NCBI RefSeq assembly: GCF_028532485.1
Contig: NZ_CP116942.1
Span: 124,001-188,000, forward strand
Reading direction: 5' to 3'
DNA: 64,000 nucleotides
Source: Iamia majanohamensis
GTDB lineage: Bacteria > Actinomycetota > Acidimicrobiia > Acidimicrobiales > Iamiaceae
Shown: positions 25,821 to 39,440 of the stretch, one piece after another
Layout of the letters: each line of letters starts with the position of its first letter
How positions within the stretch are numbered: position 1 is the first letter of the stretch
Notes under the pieces: generated by a model
Told to the model about the DNA's origin: nothing
Database searches by the model: none
What the model saw: only the letters and a program-made list of their open reading frames with translations
Position numbers and translations under genes: made by a program

Positions 25821-25838
25821 GCGTTCTCAGCTTGGGAA
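25821..25838. repeat. 18-bp direct repeat, left copy (candidate att site of the island)
   Basis: GCGTTCTCAGCTTGGGAA, identical to 39393-39410 inside tRNA-Gly(CCC), where it covers part of the anticodon arm, variable loop and edge of the T arm. An exact 18-base match to a tRNA segment 13.6 kb away is very unlikely by chance. The flank on its left is normal high-GC chromosomal DNA. Confidence 0.75.
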
Positions 25839-25995
25839 CCCGCCAGAGGGGTGTCGCTGACCACCCCCCATGGGCGCAACCCCAGGTCGGACCGGGTCAC
25901 CCGTGTCCGCCACTACCCCTCGCTGACCCGCATCTCCCGCCCGATCTGGCACGCATCTGGCACGCCGGGAGATGGCGCCGCATGCTGTTAACACG

Positions 25996-27225
25996 TCATC
26001 CCCGGGGGGCTTCGCTCTTCCTCGCCTTCGGCTTCGCCTTCTTCTTCTTCGTCTTCGTCTTCGTCTTCGCGTTCGCTCTGGAGGCGCGGCCCGCTGGCGG
26101 GGGCGCGATCCCCCTCCTGGCCGTCGAGCCGAGCTTCTCGTCGCCTGGTTCGGGCTCGGAGCTGTGGGCAACACGCGGGACGCGCCTGCCGCCCGCCACA
26201 TCCGCGACGGGGGTGCGCAGAACCTCGAGACGTACTCTCAGCTCCCGGTACCAGCGCCGCTCGGCCCATGTTGTCCGCGGGACGGAGGCGCGCTTTCGAG
26301 ACTCGACCACTTGCCACTCGATCAACTCGTTGACGCCCCGGTCGAACATGTCCCGCGAGATTTGGTAGTCGCGAGTGAGTTGAGTCTCGGTCAGGTGCCA
26401 CCATCGCAGGGCCTTCACTTGCTTCACGGTCAAGTCGGGCCTGACCTCCTCGTCGACGGTGTCGGTACCCGCCTGCATCCACGTCGCATCGAGGAGAATT
26501 ACGAGGGCAGCTACGGCGCGGGCGGACAACACTGCGATCCACCCATTCGCCCAGAACCCTCTATCGAGCTGGGAGTAGTAGTCCGCTGGATTGTGAGCGG
26601 CATTCTGCTCGCCCACGGGCGATGTCCAGGCTCGGCCGCGACCTTCCTCATGGAGTACGCCAACACGCGGGGCACGACCCTGAGCCTGATCGGCCTCCAC
26701 GATGCCGGCATCTGCCAAGACTCGAATGGCGGACGCCACTCGAGCGGCCCCCTGCTTTCGCGGATCATCAAGTCCGAAGAGGAGCGCCCACGTGGCGGCA
26801 GGAACGTCCTCCACAGTCCAACGGTCGCCTTCACGGGCGAGGAACAAGAGGGTCAGAACCAGCTTGAGGCGTGGCTCGGCGGCCCGCCCAGCGCCCCGCC
26901 CCACGAGTTGGGCGAGAACTGGCCGCTGTTGCGAATCGATCTGGCGTGCGAATGACTTGCGGATGTTGCAGGAGGACTCGCGGCGGGTGCCAAGGTCTGC
27001 GGCCAAGGCAAGCGCGTCTTCGTCCGGTGTGCGCGGCGCATCTGCCATGCGCCGCTTTCTGCGGTCCACGCTTCGGGTCGGAGGCGGAAGGATCTTCACG
27101 ACGGAGCCCTTTGTGGTGCGCAGGGTCGGCGGCGACGAGGGGGAGAGGTCCTCAGCGCCGGCCGCCCCTCCTGTGGGAGGCCTCTGGCTCGGTGACTCGG
27201 CGGGGGTGTGGCTGCTCCGACTCAC
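25996..27225 (-). CDS. Winged-helix-like protein with Lys-rich tail (unknown, island gene)
   Basis: Up to 409 residues; the start is uncertain (GTG 27225, or ATG 27048, which skips a low-complexity head). I recognise no named family. Two helical segments look like winged helices: one at about 118-180 (LKLVLTLLFLAREGDRWTVEDV to VASAIRVLADAGIVE) and one at about 275-320 (LTETQLTRDYQISRDMF to ELIEWQVVESRKR). The last 30 residues are KTKTKTKKKKAKPKARK, encoded by TCTTCG-type microsatellite DNA. It is probably DNA-binding: a regulator of the island or a replication-type protein. Divergent from the NYN gene. Confidence 0.6.
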   Translation of the reverse strand: MSRSSHTPAESPSQRPPTGGAAGAEDLSPSSPPTLRTTKGSVVKILPPPTRSVDRRKRRMADAPRTPDEDALALAADLGTRRESSCNIRKSFARQIDSQQRPVLAQLVGRGAGRAAEPRLKLVLTLLFLAREGDRWTVEDVPAATWALLFGLDDPRKQGAARVASAIRVLADAGIVEADQAQGRAPRVGVLHEEGRGRAWTSPVGEQNAAHNPADYYSQLDRGFWANGWIAVLSARAVAALVILLDATWMQAGTDTVDEEVRPDLTVKQVKALRWWHLTETQLTRDYQISRDMFDRGVNELIEWQVVESRKRASVPRTTWAERRWYRELRVRLEVLRTPVADVAGGRRVPRVAHSSEPEPGDEKLGSTARRGIAPPPAGRASRANAKTKTKTKKKKAKPKARKSEAPRG

Positions 27226-27472
27226 AGTCCTGATGCTCCATCGCTCCTGAGACGCTCCGGTACTTCCGCCGTGGCCCCACAGGAAATGAGGGTACTACTC
27301 GGAATGTACCGGACAATGTCGCCGGTTGACCACCGCTGTGACACGGCGTGTTGTTTCCGCTGGATCACCGGTTGTCCAGCGCTGTGCCTCGGTTGCGTCG
27401 TCCGGCTCGAACCGGTTTGCTCACGGTCGACCGCACGCACCGTGCTTGCGGCGGACGAGAAGGGAACGTGAG
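27226..27472. promoter_or_regulatory. Divergent promoter region with 22-bp direct repeats
   Basis: The 247 bases between the winged-helix-like gene and the NYN gene are AT-richer than the genome. Two 22-base direct repeats, 27319-27340 and 27365-27386 (core CCGGTTGACCACCGCTGTG versus CCGGTTGTCCAGCGCTGTG), start 46 bases apart. An inverted pair GGTAC/GTACC lies at 27291-27310. These look like operator sites, plausibly for the adjacent winged-helix protein. The TTGACC and TTGTCC cores also resemble -35 elements. Confidence 0.55.
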
Positions 27473-28066
27473 ATGTCAATGGTCTCTGACGAACTGGCCG
27501 GAGGAGGCGACGGCGCCCGCCGCCTCCTCGTGGTGGATGCCCCGAACGTCGATCGGGTGCACGCCGGGCTGCTTGGGCGACCGCCGCTTCGCACGGAGCG
27601 GTTCGACCCGGAGGCGTTGACTGCCTGGATGGACGGCGCTAGCAAGTCGCGGGCGGAGCGGACGCTCTTCACCAACGTGCGTCAGCCGGTCCCCGCTGGA
27701 GTCGAGGGTTGGATTCGCCACCTCGTGGACGCCGGCTGGAAGGTCTTCGCCAAGCCCAAGCTTCGCCCCGGGGACGACATCGACGACGAGATGGTCGCCC
27801 ACCTCACGAGCGCTGAGTGGACCCAGGTGACCGTGTTCAGTCACGACAGCGCCTGCTTCGTCGATCCTCTGATGGCGCTCGCTGCGAGCGGATGTGTGGT
27901 GACCGTTCTCGGGTTTCGCGAGTGCGCCGGGAACCTCCCGCACTTGGACGGGATCGACTATGTGGACGTGGCTTCGGTGCCGGGCCTGTACCAGAGCCTT
28001 CCGCCGCGAGTTCGCCTCGTGGACCTGCGCCCGCAGGGGTCCTGGGTCGAGCCCGTCGCGAACTAG
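27473..28066 (+). CDS. NYN (PIN-like) domain protein, predicted RNase
   Basis: A 197-residue NYN/LabA-like protein. Motif 1 is VDAPNVDR (Asp22, Asn25); the acidic cluster DDIDDEM (Asp101-Asp105) is motif 2; the third motif, normally SGDxDF, is changed to SHDSACF (Asp125 kept, second Asp lost). The strand-helix pattern after it (DPLMALAASGCVVTVLGFRE) is typical. NYN proteins are metal-dependent RNases. The ATG at 27473 has GAAGGGA upstream. It precedes the NurA operon by 159 bases in the same direction. Confidence 0.75.
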   Translation: MSMVSDELAGGGDGARRLLVVDAPNVDRVHAGLLGRPPLRTERFDPEALTAWMDGASKSRAERTLFTNVRQPVPAGVEGWIRHLVDAGWKVFAKPKLRPGDDIDDEMVAHLTSAEWTQVTVFSHDSACFVDPLMALAASGCVVTVLGFRECAGNLPHLDGIDYVDVASVPGLYQSLPPRVRLVDLRPQGSWVEPVAN

Positions 28067-28170
28067 GGAGCCCGAAGACAGAGGGACGAAGCCGGTCACG
28101 CACTGGGTCAGGCCACCAGACCCGCCCCGACCGCCACGTCTTCCACTAAGTGTCACACCCCATCGGTACT

Positions 28171-28185
28171 CTCCGCTCGGCGGAG
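28171..28185 (+). promoter_or_regulatory. Short hairpin in the NYN-NurA gap
   Basis: CTCCGC-TCG-GCGGAG forms a six-pair stem with a three-base loop 41 bases before the NurA start. There is no T-tract, so a terminator is doubtful; it may be a leader structure. Confidence 0.35.
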
Positions 28186-28225
28186 CGCCGATGACTTCCG
28201 CACGGCTGACCCAGGCATCCGGCCG

Positions 28226-29218
28226 ATGACACCCATCGACACCGACAGACAAAGTGCGGCGGGGATACCGCCGGCCAGTCCGGGCGATGTCGGCTGGAAC
28301 GTGTACGGCGAAGGCTGGGATCCCTCCTTCGGCACCAGCGCGGACTTCGAGGTCGATGGCTCGGCCGACGTCGAGCTGGTCGAGCCGGGTCGTGGCCCCA
28401 TCGAGCGGTCGCCCGCGCAGCCGGTACCGCTCGCCTTCGTCGACGGGGTACGTCGTGCAGAGCTCAGCCTCTGGGCTGAACACTCGGTCACCGGGGATCG
28501 GATCCCGGGCCTCGCCGGTGCCTACGGCGTCGGAGCTGTGGTGATCCGTCCCGGCGCTCCGGCGCGCTACGCCGGGATCCGCGTGGGACGGATCGCGGTC
28601 TGGGGTGGGGGCCACTCCGGTGACATCGCATCACGAGTCGGCTACCGCTGGGCGTCGGCGCCGATCGCAGGGACGGATCCGGACGAGTGCCTGGCGCACC
28701 TGCAGGACCGGATGCGGCGCGCCGAGGGCGAGCTCGCCATCGAGGCCGCCGATGCTGGCTGGAACGTGGTCCTAGACGGACCGCTGAATCGTCTGTGGCC
28801 GCCGGGCCTTGTGGCGGGATACGTGAAATCCCACCACCGTCGGATCCTGCCGGAGGGCGCTCATGCCGCGGTGCCGGGCCTGGGCATCGGGGACCGCACT
28901 CGGCTCTACAGCGTCGGATCCCAGCGCTACACCTGCTACGTGCGCATCGGCCACCCCGCTACCGGGGCGTCGCCGTGGTCCGGCATCGCTCGGCTCGAGT
29001 TCGCCGCATCGGCGGGGCTGCAGGAGGTCATCTCCCGTGCGACGCTGCTGTCGTCCCTGCTGCCCGCCCACGCCGGCGCCCATCACCGCGACCAGCGCGC
29101 GCCTGTCAACCTCACACCTGTGAAGTCTCTCGAGCACCGGTTGGCCAAGGCTCTTGGGAGCGTCGCCATGGCGACGCGGGCGGCCCGCGACGCGATCACC
29201 TCTGGAGCACGCCGATGA
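28226..29218 (+). CDS. nurA: NurA-like DNA nuclease
   Basis: A 330-residue protein I assign to NurA, the HerA-partner nuclease that resects DNA ends. Supporting marks: VDGVRR (Asp73), Glu167 and Asp184 in VVLDGPLNRL, seventeen residues apart as in archaeal NurA, GYVKSHHRR (Lys201), and a C-terminal NLTPVKSLEHRL (His304) where NurA has its catalytic His. The family's Tyr just before that His is not obvious. It is the first gene of a coupled operon; its stop overlaps the HerA start (ATGA). Assignment rests on motifs and context, not on an alignment. Confidence 0.7.
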   Translation: MTPIDTDRQSAAGIPPASPGDVGWNVYGEGWDPSFGTSADFEVDGSADVELVEPGRGPIERSPAQPVPLAFVDGVRRAELSLWAEHSVTGDRIPGLAGAYGVGAVVIRPGAPARYAGIRVGRIAVWGGGHSGDIASRVGYRWASAPIAGTDPDECLAHLQDRMRRAEGELAIEAADAGWNVVLDGPLNRLWPPGLVAGYVKSHHRRILPEGAHAAVPGLGIGDRTRLYSVGSQRYTCYVRIGHPATGASPWSGIARLEFAASAGLQEVISRATLLSSLLPAHAGAHHRDQRAPVNLTPVKSLEHRLAKALGSVAMATRAARDAITSGARR

Positions 29219-31170
29219 GTGACGACTTCCCCGCGGCCGAACCGAACAGCGATGGCGTGTCGGACGCGATCCAGGGCGAGATCGAGCTGGTGCCCCTCCA
29301 CAGGGTCGAGGACGTCACCGGCGAGGACCGGCGAAACGACCTTGATTCCCTCCCGGGGGTCCCCGGCAGTGACCCGGTCGGGCTGGTGGATGCGTCGACC
29401 GATGCCTCGACGCAGATCGCCAACGCCATCGTCGATGAAAGGTTCGATCTCGCCCTCGACACGTTCGTCGTCACGGCGCAGCGGCTGGTCGACGACACCG
29501 TGTTGTTCCACTACGGCATCGTCACCGAGGTGTCCGGTCGGTTCGAGGGGGCCGAGATGGCCACCGACACCGCCCGGCTCGTGGCCGCCACCTTGCCCGG
29601 CCAGCGCTACCGGCGCGCTGAGGTCTCGTGGATCCGCACCCACCCCGAGCGCTACCTGCCGCCGTCGTCGGGTGCCCCCCTCTGGATCGCCGAGGACATC
29701 CACCGACGTCGCGCTCTGTTCCTCGACAAGATGGCCGAGGGCGAGGCGATCGCGATCGGTCTCGACATGAACGACGAGCGGGTGTTCATGCCGTACAGCT
29801 TCCTGAACGGCGACCGAGGCGCCCATGTGTCGATCAGCGGCAAGTCAGGAGTCGCCACCAAGACCAGCTACGCCCTCTTCCTCCTCTACATGCTGTTCGA
29901 GACCGAGCAGGGCATCGCTGCTCGGGGAGGGTCGGCCCACGACCGGGCGGTTGTCTTCTCGGTCAAGGGCTCGGATCTGTGCGTCCTCGACAGGCCGAAC
30001 AACCGGTTCCACGTCGATGACGAGGTCGGTGCCGAGGCGATGGCCCAGTGGTCCACGCTCGTCGGCGAGGTGAACCCGGGACCGTTCGGCAACGTCGCCG
30101 TGTACGCGCCCGCAGAGGAGGCTGAGCCGGGCACGGAGCCCGTCCCTGACATCTCGGTGCGGGACCGGAACGACACGCACGCCTACGGCTGGTCGCCGGC
30201 GCGATTCATCTCGGCGGGCCTACTCGAGTACGTCTTCGACGATCTCGAGTCGGGGCAGCTCTCCTTCATCGAGCAGGTCGTCCGTCTCCAGCTGCTGCGT
30301 TGGGCGTGGCCGCTTGCGGGGGACGAGAGCGGCGCCATCGTGCTGGCCGACCCGGATCTTCAGACGGGCGACCCGGTCCCGTCCACATGGGAGTCGGCAG
30401 GCCGCCACTTCCGGACGAAGAAGCGGGCCGGGCTCGCCGCTGGAGCCGGAATGGTCGTCCGTGACCTCGACGACATCGTGGCCTTCGTCGCTGACAAGGT
30501 CACCGAGGGCACCGCAGGTTTCGACCCCTCCTGGTGTGGCGCTGTGTCGGCTGCGACGTCGCAGGCCTTCGTCCGACGACTCTGGAAGGCCACCCCACGT
30601 CTGCGGCGGCTCGTTCGAGCCGGTCTCGCGGAGGTCGACCTGGCCAGACAGCTCTCGGTGGTCGACGTCCACGCCCTCCACGCAGATGGTCAGCGGTTCG
30701 TCGTCGCGGCCGTCCTCGACCACGTCTGGTCGCAGCACGAGAATTCCACCGCTCCCGGCAAGACGTTCGTCGTCCTCGACGAGCTGAACAAGTACGCCCC
30801 CCGACAAGGCGGCTCGCCGATCCGTCACCTTCTGGTCGACATCGCCGCTCGTGGTCGGTCGTTGGGCGTGATCCTCATAGGGGCGCAGCAGAACCCCTCG
30901 GGCGTCGATCGCGACATCACCAACAACGCTGCGCTCGAGGTCGTCGGACAGATCAAGGCCTCGGAGGCGATGGAGCTCGGCTTCCTGCCGCCGGCCATGC
31001 GGGCCAGAGCCCAGATCATCGCTCCCGGCACCATGATCACGAACCAACCCTTGCTGCCGGCGCCCGTACCCATCCGGTTCCCGTACCCGCCCTACGCAAC
31101 GCGCGTCGCGGAGGTCGCCAGCTCGGCCAGCGACGCAGCCGACGCCGCAGCCTTCCTGGACCGAGAGTGA
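29215..31170 (+). CDS. herA: HerA-type motor ATPase with atypical P-loop
   Basis: A 651-residue HerA/FtsK-like ATPase expected to form a hexamer and drive the neighbouring nuclease. Walker B is FVVLDELNKY (Asp522, Glu523), and LLVDIAARGRSLGVILIGAQQNP corresponds to the sensor/arginine-finger region. The P-loop is unusual: SGKSGVATKTS (residues 208-218), one residue longer than GxTGSGKS and with Thr instead of Gly before the Lys. It starts in the NurA stop and its own stop overlaps the Mre11 start (GTGA). Confidence 0.8.
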   Translation: MSDDFPAAEPNSDGVSDAIQGEIELVPLHRVEDVTGEDRRNDLDSLPGVPGSDPVGLVDASTDASTQIANAIVDERFDLALDTFVVTAQRLVDDTVLFHYGIVTEVSGRFEGAEMATDTARLVAATLPGQRYRRAEVSWIRTHPERYLPPSSGAPLWIAEDIHRRRALFLDKMAEGEAIAIGLDMNDERVFMPYSFLNGDRGAHVSISGKSGVATKTSYALFLLYMLFETEQGIAARGGSAHDRAVVFSVKGSDLCVLDRPNNRFHVDDEVGAEAMAQWSTLVGEVNPGPFGNVAVYAPAEEAEPGTEPVPDISVRDRNDTHAYGWSPARFISAGLLEYVFDDLESGQLSFIEQVVRLQLLRWAWPLAGDESGAIVLADPDLQTGDPVPSTWESAGRHFRTKKRAGLAAGAGMVVRDLDDIVAFVADKVTEGTAGFDPSWCGAVSAATSQAFVRRLWKATPRLRRLVRAGLAEVDLARQLSVVDVHALHADGQRFVVAAVLDHVWSQHENSTAPGKTFVVLDELNKYAPRQGGSPIRHLLVDIAARGRSLGVILIGAQQNPSGVDRDITNNAALEVVGQIKASEAMELGFLPPAMRARAQIIAPGTMITNQPLLPAPVPIRFPYPPYATRVAEVASSASDAADAAAFLDRE

Positions 31171-32555
31171 GCCTCCGCACCATCGATAGGTCGCAGCTGC
31201 CGGCGCGCCCTGCGGCAGCAGTCCGTGTTCTCCACACGTCGGACTGGCACCTCGGGGTCGCCGTCCGGAACGAGCCTCGCGATCGCGACCACGATGCCGT
31301 GCTCTCCGAGCTCGTCGAGGTGGCGGCGGCCGCTGGCCCAGACCTCGTAGTTCACACTGGAGACCTCTTCAACGGCGGCCGCCCCGGGATGGCGGACTTC
31401 GGACGCGCGATTCGAGTTCTGCGGGAGCTCGCCGACGTCGCCCCCGTGGTCGTGATGGCCGGGAACCACGACTCGGCAGTGGCGCTGGAGACCCTCGGAG
31501 TCGCGGTGTCTGACCCCGTTCCCGAGCTGGTCGCGGCTGGAACCTACGACCCGGACGCCACCTGCCCAGCCCGGATCCGGGTCCTCCACCGGCCGACCAG
31601 TGCGCCGGGCGGGGCGGTCGCAACTTTCCCCACCAGGGCCGGAGGTCGGCTGAGGCTCGTCGCGTTGCCGTTCGTTCACGCAAACCGGGTCGCCGGCGAG
31701 TGGGAAGACGTGCTGACCTCGCACAGCACCTACACCGACGGCATCCGCAAGATCTGCGACCTGCTGACGAGCGCCGCCTTCGCCGATTTCGACGCTGCGT
31801 CAGACGTGGCCGTCTTCGCCTCGCACCTCCACGTCTCGGGGGCGCGCACGTCGACGGAGAAGGAGATCCACGTCTCCTCGGAGTACGCGACCGATCCGGC
31901 GCACCTCTCGCCCGACTACGGGTACCTGGCGTTCGGGCACATCCACATCGCTCAGGCTGTGGCCGCCAGCCGTGGTCGCTACGCAGGATCGATCCTGGAG
32001 GTCGACTTCGGGGAGGAGGGCGAGGCCAAGCAGGTGGTCGTCGCCGACCTCACGCCGGGACGACCGACGGCGATCCACGACGTCGCCCTGCGGGCCGGGC
32101 GACGGATCCATCGTGTTACCGCCCCGTACAGCCGGCTCTCGGAGCACGCCACCGCCATCGGCGACGGACTGGTCGAGGTCACCATCGGCCCGGAGGAAGG
32201 GGGCGGCGAGGGAGCCATCACGCTGGAGATCCCAGGCTTCGACAGCCTCGCCGCAGCAGTCCATGATGCGCTGCCGGACGCCACCATCGTCGGCGTCCTC
32301 GACGGTCGTCGTCCGGAGACCGCTGTTGCCGACGACCTCCACATCCCCGAGACGACGGAGACGCCAGCGGAGCTCTTCCGGGGTTGGCTCGCCGAGTCCG
32401 GCAGCCCCCTCCTTGCGCGCTACTCGACAGGCCACGCCGATCCGGAGCGCATCGCTCGGATGTTCGAGGAGATCCACACGGCCGTCACGACCGACTCCGA
32501 GGTCGAGCTGGACGGCCTCGCTCGTCTGCTCACGCTCGTCGAGGGAGCGGACTGA
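31167..32555 (+). CDS. sbcD: Mre11/SbcD-family nuclease
   Basis: A 462-residue metallophosphoesterase nuclease that processes DNA ends with Rad50. All metal and catalytic residues are present: SDWHLG (Asp26, His28), TGDLF (Asp66), GNHD (Asn100, His101), ASHLHV (His220, His222) and FGHIHI (His258, His260). A C-terminal cap region of about 150 residues follows. GTG start overlapping the HerA stop and stop overlapping the Rad50 start (TGATG) show tight coupling. It differs from a housekeeping sbcD by its NurA-HerA context. Confidence 0.88.
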   Translation: MSLRTIDRSQLPARPAAAVRVLHTSDWHLGVAVRNEPRDRDHDAVLSELVEVAAAAGPDLVVHTGDLFNGGRPGMADFGRAIRVLRELADVAPVVVMAGNHDSAVALETLGVAVSDPVPELVAAGTYDPDATCPARIRVLHRPTSAPGGAVATFPTRAGGRLRLVALPFVHANRVAGEWEDVLTSHSTYTDGIRKICDLLTSAAFADFDAASDVAVFASHLHVSGARTSTEKEIHVSSEYATDPAHLSPDYGYLAFGHIHIAQAVAASRGRYAGSILEVDFGEEGEAKQVVVADLTPGRPTAIHDVALRAGRRIHRVTAPYSRLSEHATAIGDGLVEVTIGPEEGGGEGAITLEIPGFDSLAAAVHDALPDATIVGVLDGRRPETAVADDLHIPETTETPAELFRGWLAESGSPLLARYSTGHADPERIARMFEEIHTAVTTDSEVELDGLARLLTLVEGAD

Positions 32556-35500
32556 TGCGCCCCCGCCGGCTTCGCTTCTCCGGTCTGCGCTCCTATCGGG
32601 CCGAGGCGGACATCGACTTCTCCGACCTCGACCTCTTCGCTGTCATCGGCGACACCGGTGCCGGCAAGTCCACCATCATCGAGGCGCTCTGCTTGGCGCT
32701 CTACGGCAAGAAGACCTGGTCCGGCGATTCTCTCAAGGATGTCATCGCCGATGGCGAGGACATGATGCGCGTCGAGTTCACCTTCGACGCTGACGGCCAC
32801 ACCTGGATCGTGCAGCGGGCCCGGCGGCGCAAGGCGGGCCCGGGTCAGGACCTCCTCAAGTCGACCACCAACCACGTGCCCGACGTCAACGGCCATGGAC
32901 AGGTGACGCAGCGGGTGGTTGATCTGCTGGGTCTCAGCTTCGACCAGTTCACTCGCGCCGTCGTGATGCCACAGGGCCGCTTTGACGAGCTGCTCCGCTC
33001 GACCACGGGGACGAGGAACCAGATCCTCAAGTCGCTACTCGGTCTCGAGGACATGACCCGCGCCGCCAAGGCGGCCGTCGAGGCCAGGGACGAGGTTCGT
33101 CCGATCCATGAGCGTTACCTCGAGCGTCGGAGGGCCTTCCCGGCCGACCCTCAGGCTGAGCTCCGAGACGCGACGATGGGTCGGGACGTCGCAGTCGCTC
33201 GCCGCTCGCTGCTCGAGCGGAGCGTCGAGGCAATCGGTGGACCTCTGGCCACCCAGCAGGCGGCTGCGACGGTGCGCGGCCCGCTCTCGGAGGCGCTTGC
33301 CGCCTTGGGATCGCAACCCGATGACGTGGTCGAGGTCCTTCGCTCGTGTCACGAGGTCGGAGCGCGGCTTCACGAGGAGCTAGCCGAGGTCAAGGCTGAC
33401 CTGGACAAGGCGAAGGGGTCGTTCGACGCCGCCTCGGAAGAGATCGAAGTCGTCCTCGCCGGGTTCCCCACGACGGGGCACCTGACGGCGGCCGCCTCCC
33501 GGGCCGAGGACGCAGTGGAGAACCTGCCCGGCGACTTGGAAGCGTTGGCCGGCGCCCGCCGCCGCCGCTCCGCCCTCGAGGAGGCTGCGCCGGCGACGGG
33601 AATCGATCCGGCCCTCGTCGAGCGCGAACGGGACACGGCGCAGGAGGTGGCTGACCTCCGCCGTGCGGAGGGCGTGGCGAAGGACGCCCGGGCCGAGGCC
33701 AGGTCGGCGTGGGCCCGATTCCTCGCTCTCCGGGACGGCCTGCCTGGCGCCACATCCGCCGCTGCGGCCGCGCGGCAGGCCCACGAGAGCGCCCGCTCCG
33801 ACGTCGCTGCAGTCGAGGAGAGGCTCACGGCGGCGGGTGCCGAGCTGGCCAACGCACAGGCGGCCGTCGAGGCAGCCCAGGTAGCTGACCGTGTTGCTGC
33901 TGTCGCCGTCGGCCATGGCGCAGGCGATCCCTGCCCAGTGTGCAGCCGGGAGTTGCCATCCGACTTCGTCGTCCCGGACAGCGCCGATCTTGACGCCGCT
34001 CGCAACCGGCTGGATGCGGCCACCGCTGCGCGAGACGCAGTCGGGACGGAGCTGCGAGCGCAGCGCGATCGAGCCTCGGAGCTCGCGGCCACGGCCCGGC
34101 TGCGGTCCGACGCCGAGGCGACGGCGCAAGCGGACCTTGAGGCGGAGCGCGTTGAGGCCGCAGGCCTTGGAGTGGACATCGCCGCACACGACGACGACCG
34201 GGCCCTCGCCGCCCTCGACACGGCAGTGGAGAGATCGGCGGACCGGCTCGGTCAGGCTGAGGCCGCCGCCCAGGCGGCGTCCGTCGCCCGAGCGACTGCC
34301 GAGGCCGCGCTCGAGGGAGAGCGGATCCGGCACGCCGACCAGGTGGTCCAGGCTGAGAATGAGGTGGGTCGAGCCCAGGCTGCGTTGGACCGCTATGTGA
34401 CCATGCTCGTGGGCTTGCCATCGGCGTGGCGGCGGGAATCCGAGCCCACAGCCGATTCCCTGAGCGTGGAAGGGTTCATCGACCTGGGCAGCCGACTCGC
34501 TGCGGCGAAGGGTTCAGTTGAGGCAGCGGCGAAGCGAAGGGCGGACGCCGAGGGAGCCATGGCGAAGGGCGAGGCGCGACGGGAGGCGATACGCGCCAAC
34601 GCCGCCGAGCGGGTCACCCAACCAGCTGCGGCTGCGCTGGCGCAGGTGAATCGTCACCTGACCCGGGTACGGGCGGTCGTCGAGCGGGCCCGCCAGGCCG
34701 CCAAGGCATGCGCGCTCGACGTCGAGTTCCCCGATGCGTCGGTCGAGGAGGTGCCCGATCGGGTCACAACCGCCGATCTGCCGGACACGATCGCGGCGAC
34801 GTCCCAGCGCTTGGGTGACGCAACTCACCAGGTCGAAGTGGCGCGAAGGGTCCTGACTGAGGTTGAGGCCGCGGAGCGATCGGCGGCCGAAGCTGTCGCA
34901 AGCGCCCTCGCTGAGGCAGGGTGCGAAACGGTAGACGAGTTGCACGGCCAGCTTGGCCAAGCCCGCTCACAGGAGCAGCAGGCCGAGCATGCCGTGGCTG
35001 CAGCCGCAGTGGCCGTCACGCAGGCCGCCGCCGTCGATGAGGTCCTGAACCTCGCTACTCCCTTGCGCGAGGACCTCGAGGTCCTGTGCGCAGCGCTGGG
35101 CAACAACCAGTTCGTCGACCACCTCCTCGATCGACGGGAGGCGGAGCTGCTGGCCGAGGCATCCCGCCGGCTGAAGGCGCTCACCGGGGACAAGTTCGGG
35201 TTCGTCGCCGACTTCGGGGTCAAGAACACGGCGTCCGGCGAGATCCGCAGCCCGGACTCCCTATCTGGAGGCGAGCGCTTCCAGGCTTCGCTGGCGCTCG
35301 CCCTTGCACTCGTCGAGATCGCGTCCCGAGGGGCAGGCCGGCTCGACGCGGTGTTCGTCGACGAGGGCTTCGGCTCACTTGATCAGAACGCGCTTGAGAC
35401 GGCGCTCGCCACCCTCGGCCGGGTGGCCGGCGGCGGCAAGACCGTCGCCCTCATCTCGCATCTCCAAGCCGTCGCCGAGTACGTGGACACCGTCATGCAC

Positions 35501-35602
35501 GTCACGAGAGACGATGTCTTCGGCTCCAAGATCCGCACCCTCACCGAACCCGAGCGAGACCAGTTCCTGTCCGACGACATCCGCTCTGGCCTAACGGGCT
35601 GA
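32555..35602 (+). CDS. sbcC: Rad50/SbcC-family SMC-like ATPase
   Basis: A 1015-residue ABC/SMC-like ATPase that partners Mre11. Walker A GDTGAGKST (32-40), Q-loop region VVMPQGRF, long Ala/Glu-rich coiled coils, a zinc hook CPVC (Cys460, Cys463) in the middle, ABC signature LSGGE (903-907), and Walker B VFVDEGFGSLD (Asp936, Glu937). It is complete and of usual length. ATG overlaps the Mre11 stop by one base. GC content is near 67%, below the surrounding chromosome. Confidence 0.9.
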   Translation: MRPRRLRFSGLRSYRAEADIDFSDLDLFAVIGDTGAGKSTIIEALCLALYGKKTWSGDSLKDVIADGEDMMRVEFTFDADGHTWIVQRARRRKAGPGQDLLKSTTNHVPDVNGHGQVTQRVVDLLGLSFDQFTRAVVMPQGRFDELLRSTTGTRNQILKSLLGLEDMTRAAKAAVEARDEVRPIHERYLERRRAFPADPQAELRDATMGRDVAVARRSLLERSVEAIGGPLATQQAAATVRGPLSEALAALGSQPDDVVEVLRSCHEVGARLHEELAEVKADLDKAKGSFDAASEEIEVVLAGFPTTGHLTAAASRAEDAVENLPGDLEALAGARRRRSALEEAAPATGIDPALVERERDTAQEVADLRRAEGVAKDARAEARSAWARFLALRDGLPGATSAAAAARQAHESARSDVAAVEERLTAAGAELANAQAAVEAAQVADRVAAVAVGHGAGDPCPVCSRELPSDFVVPDSADLDAARNRLDAATAARDAVGTELRAQRDRASELAATARLRSDAEATAQADLEAERVEAAGLGVDIAAHDDDRALAALDTAVERSADRLGQAEAAAQAASVARATAEAALEGERIRHADQVVQAENEVGRAQAALDRYVTMLVGLPSAWRRESEPTADSLSVEGFIDLGSRLAAAKGSVEAAAKRRADAEGAMAKGEARREAIRANAAERVTQPAAAALAQVNRHLTRVRAVVERARQAAKACALDVEFPDASVEEVPDRVTTADLPDTIAATSQRLGDATHQVEVARRVLTEVEAAERSAAEAVASALAEAGCETVDELHGQLGQARSQEQQAEHAVAAAAVAVTQAAAVDEVLNLATPLREDLEVLCAALGNNQFVDHLLDRREAELLAEASRRLKALTGDKFGFVADFGVKNTASGEIRSPDSLSGGERFQASLALALALVEIASRGAGRLDAVFVDEGFGSLDQNALETALATLGRVAGGGKTVALISHLQAVAEYVDTVMHVTRDDVFGSKIRTLTEPERDQFLSDDIRSGLTG

Positions 35603-35676
35603 TCACCGAAGGCCGACTTGCCGTCGGGCGGCGGGCCGATCGGGCTGGACCGCCAGATTCATGGATGGTGGTACGG

Positions 35677-35694
35677 TCCCAGTCTCAACTGGGA
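35677..35694 (+). promoter_or_regulatory. Hairpin before the SIR2 start
   Basis: TCCCAGT-CTCA-ACTGGGA: a perfect seven-pair stem with a four-base loop, ending seven bases before the GGGAGG Shine-Dalgarno (35699-35705 region) of the SIR2 gene. It may be an operator or a leader hairpin that affects translation. Confidence 0.5.
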
Positions 35695-35711
35695 AGGTCG
35701 GGAGGGCCATC

Positions 35712-36998
35712 GTGGAGAGTCTGTACCTTACAGCTGGCGACTTGCGGTTTGAGGTCACTGAAGGCTCGAACGGGCGACGTCTGCGCGACATCCTTGGTCA
35801 ATTGATTCAGGTGAACGATCTCTGTTTACTAGTTGGAACGGGCGCATCCTTCCACCTTGGTGCTCCGAAAATCCGCTCTGTCGATTCGCAGATTGTAAAG
35901 GAGATGTGTGCGACAGCCGGTTTGAAACTGGAAGAACGGCACTCTCAGTTGCTCGACCAGATGATCCCGGAGGGTACGGACCTCGAGCATTTCCTGGGCC
36001 AACTGGTGGCATGTCGCTCCTACGCGGCTGCGTTCAAGCTGACAGACGTCACGGTCGGAGAAGTTGAGTGCACTTCAGACGAACTAGAAAACCTCTTCGT
36101 CGCGGTCAATGTGGGTCTTGCGTGGGCATGCGACCTACCAAACGCTGATTGCGATCCGGAGTTTGAGAGCGATCCTTTGAAGGCGCATCGAGACTTGCTC
36201 GGTCGTCTGGTCGCAGCAAGACGACCCGATGCGCCCCGGTTGAAGGTTTTCACCACAAACTACGACACGGTCATAGAGCGAACGCTGGACGAGTCTGGAG
36301 TTACGTTCATCGATGGGTTCTTGGGGTCGATCGATCGGCAGATCAGTCTTGCCTCTTATAATAGAGATGTCTACTACGCACCGAACGCCGATAAGGGCAC
36401 TGTTCGCCGAGTGCCGGACTTGGTACACCTCTACAAGCTGCACGGCAGTCTGACCTGGCGTAGCAGGCATTCGTCACTCGGATCGACGACCGTAACGCAG
36501 TCTGCCGGCCCGCCAGCAGGTGATGAAGTTGCGGTGATATACCCGACGCCTACGAAGGAATCGGACGTCCTTGGGCATCCGTACTCCGACTTCTTGCGGT
36601 TGTTCGGCGCTGCGGTAAGTGAGCCGGAATGTGCATTGCTTGTGATCGGCTATGGCTTCGCTGACGAGCATATCAACCGAATCATCTTTGATGGGATGGC
36701 TCGAAACGGGAGTCTCCAACTCTTCATCGCCGATCCATTCGGTGTCGTTGAGTCCTATGATGGGGATCAAGCACCTCCGGTTGTGGAACGATCTGACTCG
36801 CCGGTGGGCCGACTCTCGGCCGTAAAGGACTCGCGCATCTCTGTTCTGACCGGCGAGGCGGCCATCTTTCCGCGCCTGGCTGAAGCGTTTCCTGACGTTA
36901 CTGACCTGCCTCCTGCCGGGCAGGACCGGATCGAAGATGTTCTCGCCGCTGCCCTGTTGCGACAGGCCGACACATCGGCAATGGATGTTGGCCAGTGA
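35712..36998 (+). CDS. SIR2-domain protein, predicted NADase of a SIR2-HerA pair
   Basis: A 428-residue SIR2 protein. NAD-binding GTGAS (42-46), TTNYD (Thr182, Asn183, Asp185), catalytic His244 in YKLHGSLTW and GYGFADEHIN (from 313) are all intact, so NAD+ hydrolysis is predicted. GTG at 35712 is chosen because GGGAGG lies just upstream; an ATG at 35661 is the alternative. The stop overlaps the start of the HerA gene (GTGA). GC is near 55%, far below the genome. In known SIR2-HerA anti-phage pairs, infection triggers NAD+ loss. Confidence 0.85.
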   Translation: MESLYLTAGDLRFEVTEGSNGRRLRDILGQLIQVNDLCLLVGTGASFHLGAPKIRSVDSQIVKEMCATAGLKLEERHSQLLDQMIPEGTDLEHFLGQLVACRSYAAAFKLTDVTVGEVECTSDELENLFVAVNVGLAWACDLPNADCDPEFESDPLKAHRDLLGRLVAARRPDAPRLKVFTTNYDTVIERTLDESGVTFIDGFLGSIDRQISLASYNRDVYYAPNADKGTVRRVPDLVHLYKLHGSLTWRSRHSSLGSTTVTQSAGPPAGDEVAVIYPTPTKESDVLGHPYSDFLRLFGAAVSEPECALLVIGYGFADEHINRIIFDGMARNGSLQLFIADPFGVVESYDGDQAPPVVERSDSPVGRLSAVKDSRISVLTGEAAIFPRLAEAFPDVTDLPPAGQDRIEDVLAAALLRQADTSAMDVGQ

Positions 36999-39148
36999 CC
37001 ACCGACGGCACGCATCGAATTGGCTCCGTCGCTGCGGTGGAGAGCGAACGGGTGTTGATCGAGATTGATGCGGCTTCGGCAGGACTGGTGAAGGCCGGGT
37101 CTGCAGGGGTGCTGCCAGTCGGTGCCATCAACTCTTACGTGACGATTTCGGCGGGCTCTAGTCGAGTTGTAGCAGTAGTCACGGCGATTCGCATGGCGCC
37201 TGAAGGCGGGCCCGGGGCACCACAGCTTCCGTCGGATGCCGCCTTCGAGATTCGCCGTACCATCGAAGCGACTATGGTTGGAAGACTAGAAGTGGGAGGC
37301 TACGAGCCTGGCTTAGTTTCCTACCCTTCAGTATTCGCGCCCGTGTCGCTTGCCACAAGGGCCGACCTTGAGACGATCTTTCGTCCAGGCGAGCCGGCGT
37401 TCGCTCTAGGTCAAGCGTCCGTTGCACCTGACCAAGATGTCTGGCTCAATGCTGATCGTTTGCTAGGACGCCACTTCGCTGTGCTTGGTTCCACGGGTTC
37501 CGGAAAGTCGTGCTCGGTGATGGCGGCACTTGACGGCATTGCCGACCTCGGCGTTCCCGGAGCTAACATCGTAATCTTCGACACAAATGGAGAGTACGGA
37601 CGATGCTTTCGACAAGGAAGCATGCGTGCCGCGAAGATGCGGGCATTCTCCGTAGGGCCGACGCCCGGCGGCGACGGGTCACTACACGTGCCGCAATGGT
37701 TCATGAACACCGACGAACACCTTGAAATGGTGCGAGCCGCAGAAGGTGTCCAAGCGCCGCTTCTGCAAAGGGCGATAGCCGATGCTCGCTTGCATAGTGA
37801 GACCAAGGGTATTGGTCTGCGGCGGCTGCGAATGGTTAGGCGTGCTCTTGAGACCATCACTAATATCGAGCGGAATGATCGTAAGGTCCAAGAGAAGCTC
37901 CTCTCCCAAGGTCGTTCGCTGCACACATACCTGGGTTCTTTCCTAGATCCACCGGACGAACTTGAAGTTCATTGGCGGGCGATGCAGGAGAGTTTAAGGA
38001 GATTCGGAGAGCTCGACCTTGATGATTCTTCCTGGGACCCGTTGACCGCCGTTCAACGCGGAGTATTTGAAGAAGTAGTTCAAGCCATGAGAGACGAGAT
38101 AGAGTCCGCGGTCAGCACGCTTGGGCTTGGAAGTAGCATCGCCGCCTCCGACTTCGATGCTCCAACTTACTTCTCATTGGAGGACTTGAGCGAAGTCTTC
38201 CTTCCCCGACGAATCGAAATGGAGTCTGAGCAGGACCAGAGAATTGCAGCGTATGCGGTCACGATGCAGATGCGTCTGAGCCGGATGCTCGCAGATGATC
38301 GCTACAGCTTCGTCACGCGGGTGGAGCCTTTTGAAGGTGCGCTGAGTCTTTACCTCCGAATGTTGTTTGGACACCAGCCAATGGAGACCTTCGACTCTGA
38401 AGCGGAACCTCCTTGGGGAGAAAGCTACAGCAACGAGTGTGAGGGCAGTGATGGGCATCAAGTCACTCTGCTAGATTTAAGTCTTGTGGCCCAAGACGTC
38501 TTGGGGGTGGTCACCGGCCTCATTGCGCGATTGATACTTGACCTTGCTCAGCGAGTCGAACCGAGAGCATCCTACCCGGTACTAGTAGTGCTCGAAGAAG
38601 CTCACCGATATGTTCGCCGAGAAGCGGACGGGTCAAGGACGCAGGCAAGCCTCGCGTTTGAGCGGATCGCAAAGGAAGGCAGGAAGTTCGGCGTTTCATT
38701 GTGCGTTGCTACGCAGCGTCCAAGCGAACTGGACGGCACCGTGCTGGCTCAGTGCGGAACGCTGATCGCACACAGGACTGTGAGCCAAGTCGACCAAGAC
38801 CTTATCCGTCATGCCACGCCGATGGCGTCGCGTGACGTGTTGCGTCAGTTGCCAGGCTTGGCGACTCAACATGCGCTTGTACTCGGTGAGGCGGTCCCTG
38901 CTCCCGTTGCGGTCCGGGTTCGTGACGTGGCCGACCCTCCGGACAGCCAAGACCCTCGCTTCATCGAGCGGTGGTCGGCGGGAGCTGCAGACGGCGCCGC
39001 CCGCCACATCCACGCGATTGCGAAGGCGTGGGAGTCGGGACGTCGGACACGTGTTGGAGCGGCAGACCTGACCACCTCGGATGAGGGTTCACCGGGGTCC
39101 GACAACGATGATGGTACCAATGAAGGAATTGCCCCGGCGGGCGAGTAG
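36995..39148 (+). CDS. herA: HerA-type ATPase (DUF87) of the SIR2-HerA pair
   Basis: A 717-residue HerA/DUF87 ATPase. It has an N-terminal HAS-barrel-like region (1-150), a canonical Walker A GSTGSGKS (165-172), Walker B LVVLEEAHRYV (about 530-540) and KEGRKFGVSLCVATQRPSEL with LAQCGTLIAHR, the classic HerA C-terminal motifs. The central region (about 250-450) is a long helical insertion. It is coupled to SIR2 by a GTGA overlap. GC is as low as in SIR2. Unlike the HerA at 29215, its P-loop is normal. Confidence 0.88.
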   Translation: MTTDGTHRIGSVAAVESERVLIEIDAASAGLVKAGSAGVLPVGAINSYVTISAGSSRVVAVVTAIRMAPEGGPGAPQLPSDAAFEIRRTIEATMVGRLEVGGYEPGLVSYPSVFAPVSLATRADLETIFRPGEPAFALGQASVAPDQDVWLNADRLLGRHFAVLGSTGSGKSCSVMAALDGIADLGVPGANIVIFDTNGEYGRCFRQGSMRAAKMRAFSVGPTPGGDGSLHVPQWFMNTDEHLEMVRAAEGVQAPLLQRAIADARLHSETKGIGLRRLRMVRRALETITNIERNDRKVQEKLLSQGRSLHTYLGSFLDPPDELEVHWRAMQESLRRFGELDLDDSSWDPLTAVQRGVFEEVVQAMRDEIESAVSTLGLGSSIAASDFDAPTYFSLEDLSEVFLPRRIEMESEQDQRIAAYAVTMQMRLSRMLADDRYSFVTRVEPFEGALSLYLRMLFGHQPMETFDSEAEPPWGESYSNECEGSDGHQVTLLDLSLVAQDVLGVVTGLIARLILDLAQRVEPRASYPVLVVLEEAHRYVRREADGSRTQASLAFERIAKEGRKFGVSLCVATQRPSELDGTVLAQCGTLIAHRTVSQVDQDLIRHATPMASRDVLRQLPGLATQHALVLGEAVPAPVAVRVRDVADPPDSQDPRFIERWSAGAADGAARHIHAIAKAWESGRRTRVGAADLTTSDEGSPGSDNDDGTNEGIAPAGE

Positions 39149-39370
39149 ACGTGAGTTGCCGCAATTCGTTTTCCCACGAAACGCACGCTGAAGTTTGAGT
39201 GAAGGTTGGACGGTGATCCCACGGGAGCCCTCCGTGGCGGATCGGTCCGGCGACACTCGCGAAGCGATCGTGCGGATCGCAGATGCCGGCAGTCCCGCTC
39301 TGTAGCGCACTTTCGTTCCCGGCAGTTCTCGGCGAGGCGCTGCGAGCCTCTGACCTTGAGTTTTTCTAGA
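39149..39370. other. Island right-end non-coding stretch
   Basis: About 220 bases between the HerA stop and tRNA-Gly. No gene recognised; a 73-codon minus frame is not convincing. If the island is mobile, this stretch would be its right arm next to the tRNA. Confidence 0.4.
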
Positions 39371-39440
39371 GCGGGTGACGGGAATCGAACCCGCGTTCTC
39401 AGCTTGGGAAGCTGATGTTCTGCCTCTGAACTACACCCGC
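39371..39440 (-). tRNA. tRNA-Gly, anticodon CCC
   Basis: The minus strand folds as a complete cloverleaf of 70 bases: acceptor GCGGGTG/CACCCGC (7 pairs), D stem GTTC/GAAC, anticodon stem TCAGC/GCTGA with loop TTCCCAA (anticodon CCC), four-base variable loop and T stem GCGGG/CCCGT with loop TTCGATT. The 3' CCA is not encoded. Its bases 39393-39410 are repeated at 25821, marking it as the probable integration site of the island. Confidence 0.95.
39393..39410. repeat. 18-bp direct repeat, right copy (within tRNA-Gly)
   Basis: Identical to 25821-25838. It covers the anticodon loop, the 3' side of the anticodon stem, the variable loop and the first bases of the T stem. Confidence 0.75.

Follow-up and report, generated by a model that had tools for sequence, protein, structure and literature searches.

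The described systems closest to the one considered here include those of archaea and of Deinococcus radiodurans. In archaea, nurA, herA, mre11 and rad50 form one operon, as described in the accessible part of a 2026 study (PMC12977600), where an antiviral role is also proposed for archaeal HerA-NurA. According to the available portion of a 2023 paper (PMC9960219), few bacteria have NurA-HerA. A literature search through titles and abstract starts, covering sources other than subscription papers and preprints, returned no paper on a four-gene cassette in bacteria. Here we describe such a cassette, a nurA-herA-mre11-rad50 operon, in a stretch of 64,000 nucleotides (nt) from Iamia majanohamensis (contig NZ_CP116942.1, positions 124,001 to 188,000), hereafter the window. 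The four-gene operon is real. We put at roughly 0.47 the probability that it encodes an end-dependent DNA-degrading machine, which the clade of relatives that includes the window would use mainly as accessory immunity.

Results

A check of the open reading frames (ORFs) confirmed the four genes (Table 1), which overlap at every junction: ATGA at 29215-29218 (nurA/herA), GTGA at 31167-31170 (herA/mre11) and TGATG at 32553-32557 (mre11/rad50). An earlier sequence-only reading of this DNA had given the same coordinates, gene order and overlaps, all of them correct, and the motifs behind its claim of intact catalytic residues in Mre11 and Rad50 are present in both window proteins. Mre11 scored 98 bits against TIGR00619, above the family cut-off, and its nearest structures were those of SbcD (3.7e-19). 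Its motifs are SDWHLG (position 25), GDLF (65), GNHD (99), SHLH (219) and GHIH (257). Rad50 matched TIGR00618 at 5e-51, which is below the family cut-off, and an SbcC structure at 5e-27, and it carries GDTGAGKST (32), CPVC (460), LSGGE (903) and VFVDEGFGSLD (933).

The identity of the first gene as NurA was borne out by both its family profile and its predicted fold. The profile matched D. radiodurans NurA (PDB 7F6D) at 1e-57 and Thermotoga maritima NurA (1ZUP) at 1.3e-23. The AlphaFold2 model, built on a 63-sequence alignment, had a predicted local distance difference test (pLDDT) value of 89.7 and a predicted template modelling (pTM) score of 0.88. The predicted structure is an RNase H-like NurA, and a Foldseek search of it against the PDB returned 7F6D_G (3.1e-14), 1ZUP_A (1.4e-12) and 1ZUP_B (4.2e-11), with nothing else below 1e-3. 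The Pfam NurA model (PF09376) matched neither the window protein nor any other protein of the host genome, and NCBIfam gave no match for the window protein. Among the 63 family members, 42 matched the Pfam model at an E value of 1 or less, the best at 1.9e-11. We take PF09376 to be too narrow for this branch, and we file the protein as NurA because its family profile and predicted fold match, despite the lack of a Pfam match of its own.

In the NurA alignment, for which 63 of 88 sequences were kept, E167, D184, K201, R224, R256 and R291 are present in all 63 members (window included), and D73 is present in 62, the remaining one having a gap. Asp73, Glu167 and Asp184, which the first reading had named as NurA-like residues, are therefore conserved. 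Its fourth residue, His304, fared differently: the position is R in 41 of the 63 and K in 7, and because it is not conserved it is not catalytic. The substitutions D53A, K201A and R309A abolish cutting by D. radiodurans NurA, according to the part of PMC9960219 that is available. By profile alignment, in which the 7F6D chain is offset by 20 residues, these positions correspond to D73, K201 and R291 of the window protein, all among the conserved residues listed above.

HerA1, the product of the second gene, matched the HerA of 7F6D as a single sequence at 2.6e-91 over residues 46-642, nearly its full length, and as a profile at 2.2e-192. Beyond 7F6D the profile found weak matches only, the best at 8.5e-4 and 0.01. 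The Walker A and B residues K216, T217, D522 and E523 are present in 26 of 26 aligned members, and the P-loop residues SGVATKT are likewise invariant. An archaeal origin was considered and rejected, since the best profile, single-sequence and fold matches of NurA and HerA1 are bacterial, of the Deinococcus type. The best 80 of at least 525 genome loci with HerA1 relatives are also all bacterial by label. The description of the set as an archaeal machine thus stands for the four functions, but not for the sequences: because NurA-HerA is of the Deinococcus type and Mre11 is nearest to bacterial SbcD, the cassette is no recent transplant from archaea.

How the four proteins might cooperate, on which substrate and with what immune effect is something that we infer from their families. 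Mre11-Rad50 would find double-strand ends that are free, form a hairpin or are blocked by protein, and cutting by Mre11 would open them. A HerA hexamer would load at the opened end and pump the duplex inwards, and a NurA dimer docked on HerA would digest the pumped duplex. Linear or cleaved foreign DNA, such as phage genomes or DNA cut by neighbouring restriction systems, would expose such ends, whereas an intact circular chromosome would not. Only the gene overlap and the co-conservation of the two proteins point to the putative physical NurA-HerA complex with ATP-dependent digestion.

The cassette is not confined to the actinobacterium in which the first reading described it, and others of its type turn up under many phylum labels among bacteria. 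HerA1 matches at 1e-3, many of them weak, were found in 109 of 296 genomes of the phylum (4 candidates scored per genome). Across the best 80 loci, many of which are cut by contig ends, the order was NurA-HerA-Mre11-Rad50 in 37, HerA-Mre11-Rad50-NurA in 19, HerA-Mre11-Rad50 in 12, NurA-HerA in 7, NurA-HerA-Mre11 in 4 and HerA-Mre11 in 1. Room on both sides was available at 45 loci, and 39 of these held all four genes within the distance limit (22 NurA-first, 17 NurA-last). The other six comprise L100 and L110, with NurA just past the limit, L128, with a short downstream stretch, and L059-L061, with NurA-HerA only. The last three are clade-W loci (see below) with no Mre11-Rad50 match nearby; they group together, two are labelled Eremiobacterota, and they may be a natural two-gene version.

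A quick HerA1 tree was built from 114 proteins, after three of the 117 long hits had been dropped for being shorter than 450 amino acids, and fragments such as L053 and L072 lie outside it. It separated three clades and has some long branches (L120, L121). Clade W, which contains the window, has 27 rows assigned to seven phyla: Actinomycetota, Chloroflexota, Vulcanimicrobiota, Gemmatimonadota, Acidobacteriota, Pseudomonadota and Spirochaetota. Several locus labels derive from metagenome-assembled genomes and may be mis-binned (L051, L097 and L098, for example). Clade V has 39 rows, from Micromonospora, Pseudonocardia, Kineosporia and members of the window's family and order, together with long-branched Thermaceae and Cyclobacteriaceae rows. 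Clade A has 48 rows, from Actinomycetota of several groups, many of them Acidimicrobiia, with a single Myxococcales and two Acidobacteria labels.

Close relatives do not carry the cassette as a constant part of their core genome. The genus was represented by three further genomes, none of which gave a match at 1e-30, and within the order a single full-length match of the window kind was seen in 7 of 397 genomes, its own included (3 best candidates scored per genome); two of these (G711 and G441) lie outside the tree and owe their assignment to the match alone. Among 101 genomes of the family to which G113 belongs, only G113 has the window kind. A split match, as is typical of clade V, was found in 40 of the 397, so that clade V is itself patchy in this order and its description as vertical rests on neighbours common to close relatives. 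Replacement of the V kind by the W kind at one locus was also considered and not borne out: in the congeners G263 and G586, the V loci lack the genes that flank the cassette at L050.

The clades differ in how they keep their neighbours. At 70-90% HerA identity, a flanking gene was shared by 1 of 29 clade-W pairs compared with 36 of 47 pairs from clades V and A (Fisher p 8e-11), the former mostly crossing phylum labels and the latter mostly joining nearer relatives. The crossing of phylum labels by clade-W pairs at this identity is itself a mark of transfer; on this evidence the clade is horizontally spread and has moved between distant groups. A conserved fifth gene was sought in the window's subclade, and no flanking gene proved common to the window, G113, L050 and L051.

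Strong PADLOC neighbours were found at four of the five loci of this subclade with long flanks: Sir2-HerA in the window, PglW and PglX at G113, DrmD, AbiTii and PDC-S01 at L050, and SngB and SngC at L051. Elsewhere in clade W, L064 lies beside MkoA and PLD_Helicase, L068 beside a type IV restriction gene and an MkoA-like match, and L075 beside a type IV restriction gene recognised by homology. The scans took in 112 of 114 clade-W flank genes (20 loci) and, as a control, 112 of 183 flank genes of clades V and A (15 of 27 loci), apart from loci L169, L170 and L053/L072. At 1e-20 there were 62 PADLOC families over the clade-W genes and 18 over the control genes, 13 of the latter being DpdF models. 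By reading, the clade-W flanks hold about 15 distinct defence-like proteins and the control flanks some 3 or 4, a contrast whose Fisher p of 0.015 is illustrative since the genes are not independent. The count includes generic hits (an SMC-like ATPase and an HTH-M78 protein) and one unlocated ZacB match, and two of the three type IV restriction hits in it were placed by homology. Taken locus by locus, there is only a weak difference beyond the window's subclade. In line with the first reading, the cassette would have an accessory, plausibly anti-phage role. Also in clade W, an HTH-M78 (IrrE/ImmA-like) protein at L056 (16052-17122) overlaps the end of rad50 and might be a damage-responsive regulator of the cassette.

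A number of observations weigh against immunity as the main use of the window's clade. The neighbours of the fifth subclade locus, L053/L072, whose HerA (75-88% identical) is split over two contigs, look like housekeeping genes by eye across a 7-kb upstream flank (ClpP, an epimerase, dehydrogenases and a pyrophosphatase), with no match to the defence proteins compared; this locus slightly lowers our odds for immunity. The short flank of L052, in the same subclade, holds an amidohydrolase. Beyond the subclade, many of the flank genes scanned at L054, L063, L065, L074, L076, L132, L061 and L066 are without a defence match, as are the flanks of L170 in a search of the PDB only. Defence islands are also prone to attract unrelated cargo. 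The set of four does not correspond to any system listed in PADLOC (2023), where its matches are weak or generic (mad8, HerA, PDC-S10, mad3 and LmuB), the best for HerA1 being the generic mad8 at 6e-12. The sister clades that keep their neighbours suggest chromosomal repair as the ancestral role. Finally, the two kinds occurred together in none of the 47 matched genomes of the order (3 best candidates scored in each), which would fit one common role.

The serious rival to immunity, which we rank second and consider somewhat doubtful, is accessory double-strand-break repair. The cassette would then resect broken chromosome ends for recombination, and it would spread by aiding survival of DNA damage. 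All four proteins belong to repair families, and the accessible part of PMC9960219 describes end resection in vitro by the D. radiodurans NurA-HerA complex. The neighbours kept by the other two clades, the ordinary neighbours at L053/L072 and at several other clade-W loci, and the failure of the two kinds to appear in one genome all speak for repair as well. However, the same portion of PMC9960219 reports modest or even improved damage resistance in Deinococcus or Thermus strains that had lost nurA or herA by deletion, and the cassette of the window's subclade is patchy, mobile and often defence-associated. The host also has another SbcD (C1:815406) and two large PDDEXK proteins encoded side by side (C1:561268 and 564947; 561268-565801) that are probably AddAB or AdnAB, because of which standard resection would seem not to need the cassette.

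The sequence-only reading had also placed the four-gene set on an island, and this was supported by a repeat-bounded element at a tRNA-Gly(CCC) gene (Table 1). The 18-nt repeat has two exact copies in the host genome, a single contig of 4.58 Mb, with none of the reversed control, and the 13.57-kb element that it bounds coincides with a low-GC stretch.

Table 1. Operon genes and other features of the tRNA-Gly element, in window coordinates.
Feature	Position	Strand	Remarks
nurA-like nuclease	28226..29218	+	330 aa, RNase H-like fold (predicted)
herA (HerA1), Deinococcus-type DNA translocase	29215..31170	+	651 aa, P-loop GKSGVATKT
mre11/sbcD nuclease	31167..32555	+	462 aa; TIGR00619, SbcD structures, motifs
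rad50/sbcC ATPase with CPVC hook	32555..35602	+	1015 aa; TIGR00618, SbcC structure, motifs
Left copy of 18-nt direct repeat (attachment core)	25821..25838	.	exact match to 39393-39410
ORF at left end of element, start uncertain	25996..27225	-	no family over cut-off
ORF resembling NYN/PIN nucleases by eye, start uncertain	27473..28066	+	no family over cut-off
SIR2-domain protein of Sir2-HerA defence pair	35661..36998	+	PADLOC SIR2 5e-57; SIR2-like PDB chains 1.4e-25
HerA (HerA2) of Sir2-HerA pair	36995..39148	+	PADLOC HerA 1e-125
tRNA-Gly (CCC), insertion target, 3' end facing element	39369..39440	-	ARAGORN
Right copy of 18-nt repeat, within tRNA-Gly(CCC)	39393..39410	.	exact match to left copy

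The SIR2-HerA pair that the earlier reading had seen beside the operon is indeed there, and the SIR2-like PDB chains that it matches are ones that we take to be Sir2-HerA entries. The GC content at third codon positions (GC3) falls into three levels: 0.95-0.97 for four chromosomal genes alongside, 0.81-0.87 for the cassette and 0.60-0.62 for the Sir2-HerA pair. Because of these differences, the element probably contains at least two superimposed acquisitions. With so different a base composition, adjacency alone does not show that the pair cooperates with the operon, and we treat Sir2-HerA as a separate module. That all six genes form one system is accordingly very improbable in our estimate. 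The operon and the pair lie on the same strand, 58 nt apart, and each module has a HerA-type ATPase, but the GC3 values are set against a joint system, and SIR2 and HerA2 had no match (phmmer, 1e-5) at the relatives' loci L050-L129, many of which are short. We rejected a joint system on these two grounds.

Of the remaining island genes, the ORF at 27473-28066 had no PDB match under 0.1. For the ORF at 25996-27225, a comparison with 148 genomes of the order gave matches in 2 besides the host (1.1e-8 and 4.6e-4), and it has a lysine/arginine-rich tail. No integrase family was recognised among the 8 longer ORFs of the element that were scanned.

The same tRNA gene adjoins other elements in two congeners, and no clean empty site was seen. 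In G296, two copies of the same 18-mer bound a 15.6-kb stretch that ends in tRNA-Gly(CCC) and holds a different element with an integrase-like gene. In G297, the tRNA adjoins an element with integrase-like and relaxase-like genes (functions by eye); that genome has one exact copy of the 18-mer only, which means that this repeat does not bound the element there. Three genomes thus carry three different elements, two with identical 18-nt bounds, and the site looks like an integration hotspot in the genus (window 25821-39440; G296, L156 1801-17440; G297, L142 1-15573). The window element is the only one of the three without a recognised integrase. Tandem TGGCACGC-like words, seen by eye near the element end in the window (25941-25970) and in L142 (15405-15440), are possibly integrase arm sites. 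The G296 element has TIR-like and SLATT-like ORFs by eye (L156 4368-6984) and may be a defence island too. The left neighbour in the window encodes an aldo/keto reductase, for which the stretches examined of G297 and G296 gave no counterpart.

A location inside such an element, at a tRNA site that holds other elements in two congeners, would also fit a cassette that serves the mobile element itself, for example by processing ends in transfer or integration or by eliminating competing elements from the tRNA site. We consider this unlikely. The examined parts of the G297 and G296 elements hold no homologue of the island genes, and relatives occur in 6 of 72,556 plasmid records and are encoded by none of the 186 candidate stretches from viral_contigs. 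Phage records gave 2 distant matches, and a phage recombination module was rejected given the near absence of relatives from phage records and viral contigs.

Discussion

A more specific form of the immunity proposal, which we advance tentatively, is that clade W would be a so far undescribed, stand-alone anti-phage or anti-plasmid system found in some seven bacterial phyla, in which Mre11-Rad50 would license a HerA-NurA shredder at DNA ends. It would often lie beside restriction-like systems that supply such ends, and it would derive from a chromosomal end-resection operon that is still present in other clades. With complete cassettes present in many bacteria, in some branches mobile and in others keeping their neighbours, the choice between repair and defence would become open to test in mesophilic actinobacteria rather than in hyperthermophilic archaea.

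Among described defence systems, Lamassu and Wadjet of the SMC type (PMC10586767) share with the cassette the idea of a Rad50-like ATPase directed against foreign DNA. The LmuB match of the window Rad50 is weak, at 6e-12. To our knowledge, NurA-HerA is part of neither system. The Sir2-HerA anti-phage system is represented by the pair next door rather than by the cassette, and the PADLOC HerA models are matched strongly by HerA2 and hardly by HerA1.

Among DNA-end processing systems, the window Mre11 and Rad50 resemble SbcD and SbcC. Unlike SbcCD, however, they are coupled to NurA-HerA, in a host that has another SbcD elsewhere in its genome. The archaeal operon unites the same four functions, whereas the window sequences are of bacterial type and the fold search below 1e-3 gave bacterial NurA only. 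Closest is the NurA-HerA of D. radiodurans (7F6D), which is like that of the window in the full-length homology of both proteins, in the P-loop and in the nuclease residues. D. radiodurans, however, has a herA-nurA pair and is said in the accessible part of PMC12977600 to be without Mre11-Rad50, whereas in the window the pair belongs to a four-gene operon on a mobile island.

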